A stretch of 64,000 nt of DNA, from the NCBI GenBank assembly GCA_037501455.1, contig CM074864.1:23368001-23432000 (forward strand). Reading direction: 5' to 3'. This DNA is from Lantana camara (lineage: Eukaryota; Streptophyta; Magnoliopsida; Lamiales; Verbenaceae). Below are positions 44,301 to 51,898 of this stretch, piece by piece. The notes beneath the pieces were generated by a model. The model saw only the letters and a program-made list of their open reading frames with translations. It had not been told where the DNA came from and made no database searches. The translations under genes and the position numbers were made by a program. The stretch's first letter is position 1; each line of letters begins with the position of its first letter.

Positions 44301-45795
44301 CATATAATTAGCCCACAATTAACAATACATTGTGTCAATTTTATATTTAGTCTTACTATTTTACTTATTCCAAGTAAATTCTCGAGGGCCTAAAATCAAA
44401 ACAATCAATAATATTGTTCCAAATACCACGTCAGGAAGACAAACTCAACCAAAAAGTATTAGCCTATCATTTATGCTAATACACAATAAGTTTCCAATTA
44501 CATGCACAATTTACATAAATACAATGTAATTATGTAACAAGAACACTTATTTAAAATTAGCTAGAACCAACATAACTTATTTATGAGAATTAACACTTGT
44601 CATGATGAACTCCCCTTTGGGCCGAGTTTATCACACAACATATTTTCTCGACGCAAGACCGGTACAAGAATATCCTAATTTTCGAAAAGTTGACTCATTT
44701 GGGAGAACAAACGCTCTAAATTAGTAAATTTCAGTCAATATGCTCTGAATCAATAGTTCAAATATCTATACATATAAACTCCATTTAAACAAGTGAGGAT
44801 ATATATAATACATTATAAGAGTTCCTCAATATTCATGTGCCATGTCATGTACGTTTTAGTATAGGACACTTAATCACCTAAGATCATATAATATACGCAT
44901 GATGGAGTTCAAGATATTATTGTTGTATACTTCAAACTACGTATACTAAAATATTACTGTTCAAACTCATAGTAATAATATGGAAAAACATGAATGCAAC
45001 ATATTATGATTAATAGGCAATCAACAAGAATAAACCTAGGAAATATAGCTTTATTCTTTAGAGAGTCCAGGGTGTCATGACAAACTCCCCTTTGAACAGA
45101 GTATGTCATACATAATAGGTCCCTCCGTGCAAAATGGTATAGGAATACCTCAATGTTCGAAAATCGCTTCCTTTGGGAAATTAAACTTTCTTGATTGACG
45201 TACCTTATCGATATGTTTTGCACAAATAAAATTAAATTACCATACATATCTCACCCCCTTTGGGTAGGTAAGAATGCATAATAATTCATTCACTCGAAAA
45301 TGCATGTTTCGAATTTTACAAGTCTTCATAAATAGAACACTTTGGTGTAACTATCTACGTAAACTTAGTAAATTAAGAACATAGCCGAGTTCAAATAGAT
45401 TGCCCAATTTTCACACGCATAATATGTATGCAAATACTCCCACAAAATAAAGTACGAAAACTATGTACTTTTGGAAGTTATCTATAACATAATATATTGC
45501 ATGAAAATTATTCCCAAGATCTTATTTATTTGAATACTCATGTAAAGTATTCCGTCAAAATAAATTCGATTCCAACTAATTTGATCAAGTACTTTAATTT
45601 TATATCACATTCACCTTTTATGAAAATTTAGTGAATAATGAACAATTTAATCTCAATGCAATTGTCATTCAATATAAAATATTTGATCACATACATCTTA
45701 AGTTGAACCGAACAAGAGCCTAAAAGGATAACTAACCTTACAAAACATACTCTCCCTCAAAAGACTAGCTCGATGTCAAAAGCCACATTCGGTTG
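41377..45795 (-). other. Non-coding interior of the LARD-like element
   Basis: Only short open frames occur. The one at 41434-41775 (minus) shows no family I recognise. Blocks with CTCCC or ACTCCCC and TCATGA phrases recur between 43150 and 45280 in diverged form. A small hAT-type MITE lies at 41905-42088. I see no RNA gene. Confidence 0.5.
41905..42088. mobile_element. Small hAT-type MITE with GTGTC arrays
   Basis: The left end TATGATGCACGGACAC and the complement of the right end TATGATGCACGGATATGG form terminal inverted repeats. Flanks TCTTATTC (41897-41904) and TCTCATTC (42089-42096) agree at seven of eight bases, fitting an 8-bp duplication. The inside has about ten GTGTC motifs. It has no coding capacity. 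Confidence 0.75.
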
Positions 45796-45953
45796 TGTTA
45801 AAAGGTATATTAAACACATGTTTATATTTTATGTGGTTAGTATAGGATGATATTTTTGGTAGGTTATCCTAGGATTTCTTCCCTCTTGTATATATATAGG
45901 GCTGTTGTATTGTTGTTTCACAAGTAATGAAAATTCTCTTCTACCAAACTTCA
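45796..45953 (+). repeat. copia left LTR
   Basis: The 158-bp repeat differs from 48837-48994 at only about six positions. It contains TGTATATATATAGGG (about 45887-45901), the likely TATA box, and an ATG at 45927 that opens the chimeric frame described below. Confidence 0.92.
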
Positions 45954-48829
45954 AATGGTATCAGAGCCAGGTTCCGATCCTGGGACCTGTGGGTTATGGG
46001 CCCACCACGCTTCCGCTGCGCAACAGGACATGAGTCTCAAGGACTTTACCATATTGAACCGGCATCTACCATTGCTTGTCAGGCAGCCGCCTCTCCGTTC
46101 CACATACACTGTCGTCTTGGTCATCCCTCGTTGGGACAATTTAAGAAGTTAGTTCCCAATCTTGGTCGTATTACGTCTTTAGAATGTGAGTCATGTCAAC
46201 TCGGTAAACATAGTCGAGTTTCTTTTTTGTCTCGTGAAAATAAACGTGCTTTGCATGCATTTGATGCCATCCACTCCGATGTGTGGGGTCCATGTCGTAC
46301 TGTGTCTCACTTAGGATTTCATTATTTTGTATCTTTTGTTGATGATTTTTCACGGGACACTTGGATTTTCTTAATGAAGGATCATTCTGAATTATTTTCT
46401 ATCTTTTGTGCTTTATATGATGAGATTAAAAATCAATTTGGTTGTTCAATTCGTGTTTTTAGAAGTGATAATGCCAAAGAATACTTTTCTAATGATTTTA
46501 ACACTTTCATTACTACAAATGGCATTTTACACCAATCCTCTTGTCCTTACACTCCCCAACAAAATGCGGTTGCTGAAAGGAAAAACAGACACTTGTTGGA
46601 TGTTGCACGCACAATTATGTTTCATGCACATGTTCCTAAATTGTTTTGGGGAGATGCTATTCTCACTGCTTGCTAGTTAATTAACCGCAAACCTTCCACT
46701 GTGTTAGGGAATATTTCTTCTCACTCTGTCTTGTTTCCAAATGAACCAACTTTCAAACTCCCACCGCGTATTTTTGGTTGTGTCTGTTTTATCCATCAAA
46801 TGAGTCCCACAATGGACAAGTTGAGTCCTAGATCTATTAAATGTGTTTTTGTGGGATATTCTCGGTCCCAAAAAGGTTGTCAGTGTTCTGAACCAGTGTC
46901 CAAAAAGTTTTTTCAAAGTGCAGATGTCACCTTCTTTGAGTCAACCCCGTATTTCTCCACCTCTTACATGTACTCTAACATTGAGAACTCGATCACCCTC
47001 CCTAACCCTGCCCCCCTCTACCCAACTCCCACCCCTACTATTGCGAGGCTATCACGTCCTGACTTGCAGGTGTATGTTTGACGTCACCAACGTGTAAGTT
47101 CTCCAGTCTCATGTCCCAACATGTTATCTCCACTGTCTTTAGATTCTGCAGCACAACAAGCCTCAGATTTAGAGGTACCTATTGCCATTCGTAAAGGTAA
47201 ACGTACTTGCACCTCCCACTCCATCTCCACTTTCGAGTCTTATGATTACCTATCTCCCAACTTTTCTTCCCTTATCTCCACTATTGATTCTATATATGTT
47301 CCCACTAAATTACATGAGGCTATTTCTGATCCTGGTTGGAAAGAGGCAATGGATACGAAAATGTCTGCCCTTTGGCATAATGGTACCTGGGAGCTCGTTC
47401 ATCTCCCCTCTAGTAAGTCTATTGTTTGTTGTAAGTGGGTGTATATGGTAAAGGTTAATCCAGATGGGTCTGTTAATCGCCTTAAAGCCCGTGCTAAATG
47501 ATATACTCAGGTTTATGGCTTAGATTATTCTGACACTTTCTCCCCAGTTGCCAAAATGTCTTCTGTTCGTTTGTTAATTTCTTTGGCAGCTAATCTGTCT
47601 TGGCCATTACACCAGCTGGATATTACTAGTGCTTTTCTTAACGGCGATCTTACTGAAGAGGTTCATATGGAGCAACCTCAAGGGTATGTTGCTCAGGGGG
47701 AGTCAGGGTTGGTGTGTCGCCTCAGAAAATCACTATATGGGTTAAAACAGTCCCCTCGACCCTGGTTTGGACGATTTACTAAAGCGATCATGTCCTTTGG
47801 CATGAATCAATGTCCAGTAGAGCACTCGGTCTTTCATAAACGTACATCCACAGGTCTTATTCTTCTGGTTGTGTATGTTGACGACATTGTCATCACGGGA
47901 GATGACGATTTGGGGAAAAAACAATTAAAGTCATTTTTACAGTCTGAATTTCAAACAAAAGACTTGGGTGAGTTGAAGTATTTTTTGGGTATTGAAGTTG
48001 CGAGGTCCCATCTTGGCATCTCTCTCTCTGAACGAAAATATACTCTGGATCTATTATCAGAAACGGGGTATGTTGGGAGCTAAACCGGCTGACTCTTCTA
48101 TGGATGTCAATACTAAGTTGTCTGACAGCGAGGGAGAACCATTAGACAATCCGGAAAGATACAAAAGACTGGTGGGAAAACTAAACTACCTAACTGTAAC
48201 TCGACCGGATATTTCATTTGCAGTCAGTACCACTAGTCAGTTCCTTAACTCGCCCAAAACCTCTCACTGGGATGCTGTTACAAGAATTTTAAGGTATCTG
48301 AAGAAGTCACCCGGTGTGAGTTTGTTGTCAAGAATCATGGTCATCTCGACATTGTTGGATACACTGATGCTGACTATGCCGGAGCCATAACCGACAGAAG
48401 GTCTACCTCCGGATACTGTGTTTTTGTTGGGGGAACTTGGTTTCATGGAAAAGTAAGAAGCAAAATGTGGTATCAAGATCAAGTGCTGAAGCAGAATACC
48501 GAGCAATGGCTTACACCTCTTGCGAGTTAGTATGGATTAAAAACATGTTAGAGAGTCTCGGGTTTCAGTAAACTCACCTGATGGAGTTAGTATGTGACAA
48601 TCAAGCAGCTATCCATATAGCTAACAATCCCATATTCCATGAAAGAACAAAACATATTGAGGTTGATTGTCATTTTGTTCGAGAAAAGGTACTCCAGAAT
48701 GTCATTAGAACAACTCATGTCCAAATCAATGATCAAGCGGCTGATTTGTTCACCAAAGCTTTAAATAGGGTTAGATTGAAGTATCTTTGTGACAAGCTTG
48801 GAACATATGACATATATTCTCCAGCTTGA
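45927..48829 (+). pseudogene. copia pol: integrase, reverse transcriptase, RNase H
   Basis: The first open piece (45927-46676) runs from an ATG in the LTR through the tRNA copy into the integrase: FHIHCRLGHPSLGQFKKL and CESCQLGKHSRV (HHCC zinc region), HSDVWGPC (first D), FRSDNAKEYF (second D) and PQQNAVAERKNRHLL (E). TAG at 46674 replaces a tyrosine codon. After further stops near 47080 and 47500, 47556-48083 holds the reverse transcriptase with LDITSAFLNGDLTEEVHMEQ and VYVDDIVITGDD, both catalytic aspartates intact. A frameshift near 48070 leads to ERYKRLVGKLNYLTVTRPDI, and RNase H with YTDADYAG (about 48360) and [14 protein letters not shown] (48590). It is non-functional through stops and frameshifts and has no gag. 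Confidence 0.9.
45956..46024 (-). tRNA. Retrocopied initiator tRNA-Met, near full length (pseudogene)
   Basis: The plus strand begins with the 18-nt primer site TGGTATCAGAGCCAGGTT and continues as the complement of plant initiator tRNA-Met back to about nucleotide 7 of its 75. The anticodon CAT is read at 45996-45998 on the minus strand. The CCA end is encoded, which nuclear tRNA genes lack, so this is a reverse-transcribed mature tRNA, not a gene. Compared with the plant tRNA as I remember it, the first 66 positions have one mismatch (C for T at 45974, opposite nucleotide 58); the next base (46022, opposite nucleotide 9) also mismatches, then two more match. Those are the expected positions of m1A58 and m1G9, methylations that block or mislead reverse transcriptase. 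Confidence 0.9.
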
Positions 48830-48836
48830 GGGGGAG

Positions 48837-48994
48837 TGTTAAAAGATATATTAAACACATGTTTATATTTTATGTGGTTAGTATAGGATTATATTTTTGG
48901 TAGGTTATTCTAGGGTTTCTTCCCTCTTGTATATATATAGGGCTGTTGTATTGTTGTTTCACAAGTAATGAAAATTCTCTTCGACCAAACTTCA
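48837..48994 (+). repeat. copia right LTR
   Basis: It is preceded by the polypurine tract and matches the left LTR in length and nearly in sequence. Confidence 0.92.
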
Positions 48995-49162: not shown

Positions 49163-51898
49163 TGTAGCACCCCGAGCGTAAGGCGCCACATCCCCGCACT
49201 AGGACCCGACACGTGTGACGAAATGGAGAATCCGTACACGCACTAAGAACTAGCGAACGGGTGACAAACAAAAGACCCTCCTAAGCTAGGCGGTCTAAAC
49301 CCTCAAACAGAGTGCGCAAAACAAAGTATACAAGAACGAAAGTACTAAACAAACTTAAACAAATCATATGAACAAAGTTACATATTACTTAGATCAAAAT
49401 ATATACAAACTTAGCACGCCGGGCTCAAACTTAACATATACAAATTTCACATCACAAAAGTTCAAAGTACAGAATGCAATACATGCTCTAAACGAAATGC
49501 AGACTCGGACAACCCAACCAGGACTCAAAAGACAGCAAACCGCCTAGCTTGCACCAATAGACCGGCCCCTGCAAACTAAAACATAAAGAGGGAGGGGTCA
49601 GTCACACAGACTGAGTGAGGGGCTACACACGCACGTATACATACGTATATAAAGCACAACATATATCATAGAAGGGAGGAGTTCATGAACCGGGGTGTGG
49701 TTTTTGCATTCTAAACCATTTTCACATGTGATACTATAGATAGGGATTAAAAGAGCTAGGCCGAAGGCCAAAACAACCAAATTTTACGTAATTAAGAATC
49801 CACTCCCATTTCACGAACATTTCTTAACAAACTATCATAACGAAAATCAAACATAACACACACACCATCCGTCGACCTAAAATGAGCCGTCCCGGATTCA
49901 AAACACACACACACATCCGTCGACCTAAAATGAGTCATCCCGGATTCAGAACACACACACGCCCAGATATATTCAGAATCAGAATCAAAATCGGAGTCTT
50001 ACTGTATTCAGAGACATACCTCATTCTTATTCGTATTTGTATTCACATCTGCACCAAATCATAATTCAAACATATCATATTCATAACATAACCATATAAG
50101 ATCATAATCATAATGTATTCAAACTCGGGTTCATAATTACATCTCTAGCCTAGTCATAATCCTAGCATAATTACATCCTAACTGGTTCTTAATCACAACC
50201 TAATCATACCATAATTATGTTCATAATTCTAACCTACTCTTATCCTACCATATTCATATCCTAACCTATTCATATTCATACATATTCATATTCTAAACAT
50301 ATTGACAATCCAAAATATTCATAGCATATTCTTAATCCTATGTTCATATCATATTCATACCTCACATAACATATTCTATAGCCTAATTCATACCATGCAT
50401 AATCATAACTCACACGTATTACATATACATAGACTTATCTCGCATGCAAACACATAGGGCACATATCATTAGGGTATAACTATAACCTAACCTCGCCTTT
50501 CACCGACGAACCGGGCCAAAAGGACAAAACTAACGTCTACGGAATGACCTCGTCACCAACGGGAAACTCCTCTAAGAAAAATAAATAATAAAAGACAAAC
50601 TTAGACTCAAAATGAACCATATATACTCTCGGCATATGAATATGAATGCAAATGATGCAATACACTTCATACAAATTTCACACTTAGGCATATCGGAGCA
50701 AATATCGAAATATCACACAATTAATCCAAGAAACAAACTCATCATATATCAAATGAATTCATATTAAGTCATATAAGAGCATACCACGAGCATTCATTAA
50801 TTTAAAGTTCACATAACAAACAACGGATGCATAGAAAGTGAAATAAAGTGGCACTTAAGGCATACAAATTCATATTAAGTCATAAGTCACATATTTCACA
50901 TCAAATAAATTCATAGATTTCATAAAATGAACGTAACACGTTATATAGCATGTTAACAAAGCACCTAATCATAAAGAAGCCAAGAGAAATTACACAAGGC
51001 AAATAAATGAAGCCACAATGCATGCATGCAAATAAGAAAGCACTTAAGTCATATAAATTCCTACTAAGTCGTATCTCACATAATTTACATCAAACGGATT
51101 TATAAGTCTCATGCAACGATCATAACATATCCTATAATGTGTTTACAATGCACACATATCAAGGGTTAAGCAAAAAAATCTCATGCGAGGCAAAGAATCA
51201 GAGCGTTAATTCATTCATGCATGAATGAGAACATATAGGGCATATATTGGCATATATCACATAAATATGCATCGAAACTACGAAACAAATCCCTGACAAA
51301 GCATATAACATAATATATAACAAGTTAACATCATATATTAATCATATAAGAGCAAGAGAAGCCATGCAAAATACGAACGAAATGAAAAAGGAGCAAACGC
51401 ATAGCAACAGTCAGCAGCAAGTCAAAACAACCCCAAAAAGAGGTCACGGCCGTGACCAAAATCAGTTCAAAACTGGTCGCGGCCGCTACCCACACACCAT
51501 CAGAAGCTCCAGCAAGTTGAAGTCGAAGGTTGGCAGAATTTGGGTCGCGGGCACGACCCAAATTGGTCTCCGAACGATCGCGGCCGCGACTGCATGTAAT
51601 GGCGCAACAACGCCCCTGTTCCTTCTCTCCCACGAAGCAGCAGCAACTTAGGACGAAAGACAACACAAAGGGCAGTAATAAGACAGCAAAAGCACACAAA
51701 ATTCATACCAAAACAACTCAAAACCGAAGTGCAATCAAGGATGAAAGCAAAAAGGGTCACATATCATTTTCAAGCTCAAGTTTCTTCAAGCAGCAGCCAT
51801 GGTGGTTCGATTTTCACTCAAAATCCATGAAATAAATCATCACTCATGCATTAAGGAAGTCAAATAGATCATATATTCAACTTTAATCCAAGTATTAC
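49163..51898 (-). repeat. Long gypsy LTR, inverted, cut by Tat B
   Basis: Read on the minus strand it ends CTCGGGGTGCTACA at 49163. Its last kilobase resembles the long LTR at 38000-38975 (e.g. the complements of GCGCACTCTG, TAGGCGGTCT and TGTCACCCGTTCGC), so it is a diverged relative in opposite orientation. It is interrupted at 51898 by the LTR of Tat B; the rest should lie beyond that element, outside the window. It holds no gene, but a palindrome cluster at 51442-51591. Confidence 0.78.
51442..51591. repeat. Palindrome cluster in the inverted long LTR
   Basis: Four palindromes occur in 150 bases: GGTCACGGCCGTGACC (51442-51457, perfect), GGTCGCGGCCGCTACC (51475-51490), GGGTCGCGGGCACGACCC (51542-51559) and TCGCGGCCGCGA (51578-51589, perfect). 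They lie at the position homologous to the palindromes of the other long LTRs but differ in sequence from them. Confidence 0.9.

Follow-up and report, generated by a model that had tools for sequence, protein, structure and literature searches.

Copies of transfer RNA (tRNA) joined to long terminal repeats (LTRs) have precedents in retroviruses, so the kind of structure described here is already known. PMC12220202 (Gurgo and Franchini 2025) recounts a circular Moloney murine leukemia virus DNA with a tRNA copy between its LTRs (Colicelli and Goff 1986). The same paper reports a human immunodeficiency virus (HIV) provirus that bears deletions and lies next to a tRNA-Gly copy, and it cites HITME/HIV recombinants with 63–65 nt of tRNA (Konstantinova 2006). 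According to PMC13191261, 1-methyladenosine at tRNA position 58 (m1A58) sets the plus-strand strong stop of HIV-1, and the plus strands pass A58 when the methylase is mutated. For Ty1 and Ty3 with a mutant primer tRNA, section 6 of PMC5371799 states that the tRNA sequence was not inherited. For plant LTR elements, a review (PMC12786077, section 12) describes alternative end joining, with microhomology at the primer site, as serving second-strand transfer. Here, we describe a degenerate Ty1/copia LTR retrotransposon at positions 45796–48994 of a 64,000-nt stretch of the Lantana camara genome (contig CM074864.1, positions 23,368,001–23,432,000; the whole stretch is called the window). In this element, the 5' LTR is followed by an almost complete complement of the initiator methionine tRNA (tRNA-iMet), which stands in the place of the gag and protease region.

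The retroviral cases resemble this locus to different degrees. The murine leukemia virus circle shares with it a reverse-transcribed tRNA copy joined to LTR ends, but it was a single unintegrated circle with tRNA-Gly as the supposed spurious primer, whereas the Lantana copies lie in the germline, derive from tRNA-iMet, the regular primer type, and in at least two cases are integrated with a target-site duplication (TSD). The HIV provirus and the HITME recombinants also hold tRNA copies of 63–67 nt in retroviral DNA, tied to deletion or recombination; for the tRNA-Gly provirus, however, self-primed copying of free tRNA is what the 2025 authors propose in that paper. The HIV-1 strong-stop products extending past m1A58 would be the same intermediate, which reaches the tRNA 5' end if the tRNA is unmodified (PMC13191261). 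These products are biochemical, and in that source only those ending at A58, Psi55 (pseudouridine), or m5U54 (5-methyluridine) are called active templates, whereas in the Lantana genome longer read-through products appear to have left heritable copies. In the titles and abstract openings that were surveyed (open-licence literature only), no report of such tRNA copies in plant LTR elements was found, and a paper on template switching in Triticeae yielded no mention of tRNA in a term search. What appears to be new is that, in a plant genome, such copies recur, are heritable, and derive from the regular primer type.

To identify the copy, window positions 45956–46024 were aligned to the complement of the genome's tRNA-iMet gene with CCA added (75 nt in total). 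The copy covers positions 1–69 of this reference, and 67 of the 69 bases (97%) are identical. The only mismatches are at 45974 (copy position 19, opposite A58), where T was expected and C was seen, and at 46022 (copy position 67, opposite G9), where C was expected and A was seen. An earlier note, made from the letters of the stretch, had placed about 69 of 75 nt of tRNA-iMet complement after the left LTR, with these two mismatches opposite nucleotides 58 and 9, and the alignment agrees with this. Judged from the sequence, chance cannot explain a 69-nt match at 97% identity that starts exactly at the TGG answering CCA. The complement of the first six nt of the tRNA gene is missing from the copy.

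When the best 40 of 53 candidates from the genome search were scored, 11 proved to be tRNA-iMet gene copies (ARAGORN: tRNA-Met(cat)), six of them identical over 72 nt (L019–L024; L numbers denote places in the genome). In all 11, position 19 is T and position 67 is C. Variant tRNA genes, which the earlier note had named as a possible source of the two mismatches, are thus ruled out among the gene copies found. The CCA is added post-transcriptionally and is encoded after none of these gene copies, which indicates that the template was mature tRNA. This bears on the idea that the element acquired a tRNA gene or pseudogene by insertion or gene conversion. Such an event would account for the sequence being that of a tRNA, but it is hardly credible, since the copy includes the CCA complement and comes directly after LTR and spacer, oriented and in register as the primer would be, while it shows no tRNA-gene flank and lacks those first six nt. 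A tRNA-derived short interspersed element or pseudogene was also considered and rejected, because the copy has no TSD of its own, no A-rich tail, and no tRNA flank, and is continuous with the LTR and pol.

The genome was searched with the window LTR for sister elements, and the best 40 of 106 candidates were scored, the window's own two LTRs included. From these, 23 LTR 3' ends were taken, of which 17 are followed by a primer site and six run into other sequence without one. The 2-nt spacer between LTR and primer site is CA at these 17 sites and AA in the window element (45954–45955). None of the 17 sites continues into the tRNA. Their longest uninterrupted tRNA match is 12 nt, and 14 of them (among L047–L066 and L081–L083) carry a 1-nt insertion after TG[G/A]TATC. 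The usual 18-nt primer site assumed in the earlier note is therefore not found in this family. Because the sister matches do not exceed 12 nt, the window copy must be tRNA-derived in its first 18 nt as well, beyond the few bases native to the family. From the 1-nt insertion, it seems that elements of this family do not normally inherit the tRNA copy. In this respect the family resembles Ty1 and Ty3 as described in PMC5371799: 14 of the 17 sister sites retain a base with no counterpart in the tRNA, as if the tRNA-copied ends were normally unused. The difference is that in the window copy the tRNA-copied strand was used.

The sequence lost from the window element is preserved in sister L084, which aligns to the window from 46023 to the 3' LTR with 93.9% identity. 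In L084, ~1.42 kb separates the LTR from the junction, and the corresponding stretch is gone in the window element. Upstream of the junction, L084 matches the copia gag profile weakly (PF14223, E 8.3e-6, not quite reaching the Pfam cut-off) and has a copia Pol_BBD domain (PF22936, E 1.5e-6). The claim that gag and the protease region were lost while the tRNA copy was kept is borne out by this comparison. In five of the seven sister stretches examined at the join (L084–L087 and L089), GATTGGC is followed across the join by ACAGGACATG; of the remaining two, L088 is locally deleted and L090 did not align. The join rests on a 3-nt overlap, CAC, which ends both the tRNA complement GCGCCAC and the sister sequence TTGGCAC and reads AAC in the window (46022–46024). 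Owing to this overlap, the unambiguously tRNA-derived part is 45956–46021 (66 nt). Since both parental sequences have C at 46022, the A found there cannot be put down to the junction alone and reflects a genuine change opposite G9. The earlier note had raised the possibility of sister copies sharing the junction at ~46024, but none was found; beyond base 69, only the window matched among the best 40 of 53 candidates of the 75-base search.

These observations are best explained, with a probability of roughly 70%, by a read-through copy of the primer tRNA that extended past A58 and was joined by microhomology at the wrong place, replacing the gag and protease region. The copy is a TGG-starting complement located after LTR and spacer, it extends past nucleotide 58, and it is absent from the 17 sister sites that have a primer site. 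We infer the following order of steps. Reverse transcriptase (RT) copying U5 into the still-attached mature tRNA-iMet would not have stopped before A58 and would have run to about G9. With a 3' end that would have been mismatched at the normal primer site, the resulting plus-strand strong-stop DNA could not have been extended there. This end would have been joined, via the 3-nt microhomology, to the minus-strand complementary DNA (cDNA) where the pre-integrase region begins, probably by host alternative end joining. Copying would then have continued to the right LTR, leaving the tRNA copy in place of about 1.4 kb of the gag and protease region.

Two other copia elements have the same design. 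L041 has 182-bp direct repeats that are 99.5% alike (the left LTR starts with TA and the right with TG) and the TSD ATCAC/ATCAC. Its 57-nt tRNA copy is followed by an 8-nt filler and then by the pre-integrase region. Seven close relatives of L041 (93–98%) were found, and the four that were fetched have 1,536–1,632 bp between the LTR and the joining point. Their primer sites are 7–14 nt long, and none of the four has a long tRNA copy. L044 has the TSD CAGTG/CAGTG, and its 52-nt tRNA copy is joined to the SH3 domain. The LTRs of the window element, L041, and L044 share only short mutual matches (best E 0.002, inverted). The perfect 5-bp TSDs of L041 and L044 indicate that both integrated as whole cDNAs, and the window element likely did so too.

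Such copies recur across the genome. In addition to the BLAST search with the 75-base query (40 matches scored, including the 11 tRNA genes), a 32-nt pattern with up to three mismatches gave 49 matches, of which nine are tRNA genes and 14 are new places. Altogether, at least 43 non-gene places, including the window, contain 30–75 nt of tRNA-iMet complement; 36 remain after seven duplicates are dropped. The earlier note had regarded the window copy as a fossil. That it is a reverse-transcribed primer tRNA stands, but it is not alone, being one of about 36 cases in this genome. Here, independent cases are those with distinct downstream junctions, and some of them share an LTR family (the upstream sequences of L031 and L036 are 95% alike, and those of L040 and L043 are 88% alike). 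Of the 42 places compared, 26 form one group by similar sequence just upstream. We take this sequence to resemble gypsy-type LTR ends, although not every upstream end is established as an LTR.

A third search, with a 24-nt pattern and one mismatch allowed, gave 54 matches, 17 of them new. At these new sites the match, with the one mismatch allowed, ends at 23–25 nt, which is expected if ordinary primer sites are extended by chance, and they were not accepted as read-through. In this search, no copies ending at 26–29 nt were found between the ordinary primer sites and the long class. The position 19 variant is present in eight of the 54 matches, namely in five short sites and three long copies (window, L009, and L072). 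Matches end at exactly 30 nt in five contexts (L074, L075, L077, L078, and L080), where the next base is presumably the one that would be 7-methylguanosine (m7G46). L078 beside L092 suggests a native 30-nt match in one other family, which makes the five copies ending at 30 nt less secure. These five contexts could be taken to mean that more than 18 nt of tRNA complement is also normal for the window family. This is very improbable, as none of the 17 window-family sites with a primer site and none of the four fetched L041-family relatives has such a match; nor does any of them carry the whole tRNA complement, a state that the earlier note had considered for relatives.

The end points of the long copies were set by eye from the alignments, and the window was entered as 66. 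Chance matches carry the local alignment further in L069 (to 43), L072 (to 45), and L078 (to 33), but none of these reaches 50 or 66. Among the 25 copies ending at 31–74, five end at 66, where the next base is G9, and three at 50, where the next base is G26. Six further copies end at 75, the tRNA 5' end. The ends at 66 and 50 together exceed a flat distribution (binomial p 1e-5, with the positions chosen post hoc), and the same test without the window and L034 gives 6/23 (p 4.6e-4). G9 and G26 are methylated in known initiator tRNAs.

Base changes in the copies were counted in the long copies only (n = 34), after L034, which matches only from position 6, and L044, which has an indel, were dropped. 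Opposite A58, five of the 34 copies are changed, compared to 33 of 1,783 cells elsewhere (p 5e-4). The changed base is A in L009, C in L039, the window, and L072, and G in L079. The excess persists without L039 (p 0.0016). Of eight copies compared opposite G9, two (the window and L039, which is heavily mutated) have changed to A (p 0.011). In L044, outside the mismatch count, one T is missing from the run at positions 17–19. The modified bases may have caused both the stops and the changes. RT misincorporation at G9, G26, and A58 is reported for S. pombe tRNAs in PMC4697793, where the methylation is known from yeast or other species.

Some copies appear to have been rescued by fold-back. In L032 (complement, 1206–1793), a 588-nt inverted repeat (80.7%) surrounds a full tRNA-iMet copy, in the order LTR end, full tRNA copy ending in CTCTGAT, ACCA, and inverted LTR. 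It appears that the copied acceptor strand folded back on ATCAGAG and self-primed into its own LTR. In L043 and L045, AGGTC follows position 50, as expected if the strand folded back on the copied anticodon stem.

Other copies point to a different route. L015, L026, L027, and L037 (C5:88.0–88.08 Mb) are four local chromovirus copies of one event. The L015 insert consists of the last 143 bp of an LTR, a spacer, and a full tRNA copy with ACC(A), and lies inside an otherwise unbroken pol. It is missing from all six pol parents examined, has 7-nt microhomology at its left join, and is accompanied by a repeat of ~9 nt of pol. At L043 (complement, 1498), L068 (151), and L073 (151), 46–50 nt of tRNA complement is joined to a common sequence, presumably TRIM-like, around GGTTGG(G)AAGGAGAACGAAG. 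Finished U5-tRNA strong-stop DNA could thus have been captured by end joining to a broken resident element, outside the reverse transcription of that element. For the window element, we consider such capture unlikely but worth taking seriously. It is favored by the L015 insert, by the joins to the common sequence, by the missing TSD of the window element (see below), and by the 5' LTR, which resembles one other LTR in the genome (97%) no less closely than it does its partner. On the other hand, L041 and L044, which are of the same design, have perfect TSDs and so integrated as one cDNA. The window LTR also starts exactly at its TG end, although strong-stop DNA would do so too.

For the window element, read-through followed by joining within its own reverse transcription remains our preferred reading, but several points weigh against it. 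No 5-bp TSD surrounds the element (flanks GGTTG and CAAGC), and it may therefore not be one integrated unit. L015 shows insertion without deletion, so mis-transfer with deletion is not the sole route. Hence, of the failed plus-strand transfer proposed in the earlier note, the reading of the tRNA past A58 and the microhomology at the join stand, whereas mispairing during the transfer of this particular element is one possible origin of the join. Mutation after insertion could explain both mismatches in the window copy, as the two 158-bp LTRs of the element have diverged at five sites. The excess opposite A58 falls to 3/32 (p 0.012) when L039 and the window are left out, and none of the 16 copies crossing G26 is changed opposite this base. 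The end positions were chosen after the ends had been seen, and some position with at least five ends occurs in 1.0% of uniform draws. Finally, it is our assumption that plant tRNA-iMet carries m1A58, 1-methylguanosine at position 9 (m1G9), and N2,N2-dimethylguanosine at position 26 (m2,2G26).

Taken more broadly, the copies suggest a tentative reading, to which we give not quite even chances. The genome would be a readable germline archive of an aborted reverse-transcription step, in which the ends and base changes map the methylation of the primer tRNA, and microhomology or fold-back rescue leads to gag-less elements, inverted LTRs, and stitched fragments, some with TSDs. Read-through products seem to have been fixed in the germline in dozens of copies, in both copia and gypsy-type elements. 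It is possible to count and date these copies and to compare their ends and errors with the tRNA modification map. They suggest a route to gag-less elements and inverted LTRs, and they provide a natural setting in which to test whether alternative end joining performs second-strand transfer. With dozens of such accidents, the genome would preserve fossils of a replication step that as a rule goes unrecorded.

The remaining features of the window element, all on the forward strand, agree with its classification. The 158-bp 5' LTR (45796–45953) has TG...CA ends and forms a direct repeat with the 158-bp 3' LTR (48837–48994), from which it differs at five bases. The tRNA-iMet primer site directly follows the 5' LTR. 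Searches with hmmscan identified a gag_pre-integrs domain (PF13976, 46044–46211, E 2.1e-11), an integrase core (PF00665, 46266–46556, E 8.6e-14), a retroviral polymerase SH3-like domain (PF25597, 46767–46952, E 8.6e-21), and a copia-type RT (PF07727, RVT_2, 47502–48062, E 3.2e-55, profile positions 43–229 of 244). The integrase thus lies ahead of an RVT_2-type RT, as in copia elements. The polypurine tract AGGGGGAG (48829–48836) adjoins the 3' LTR. An intact gag-protease-integrase-RT-RNase H frame is lacking: the gag and Pol_BBD region of the sister is missing, and the frame through the four pol domains is broken by stops, with one at ~46674, downstream of the integrase core. A 258-aa open frame (45900–46673), probably present by chance, starts in U5, crosses the tRNA copy, and continues into the pre-integrase and integrase domains. 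Outside the element, two 45-nt stretches upstream (44598–44642 and 45073–45117) are 78% alike and 475 bases apart, and two 47-nt copies downstream (49866–49960) are 94% alike and lie 48 bases apart from start to start.
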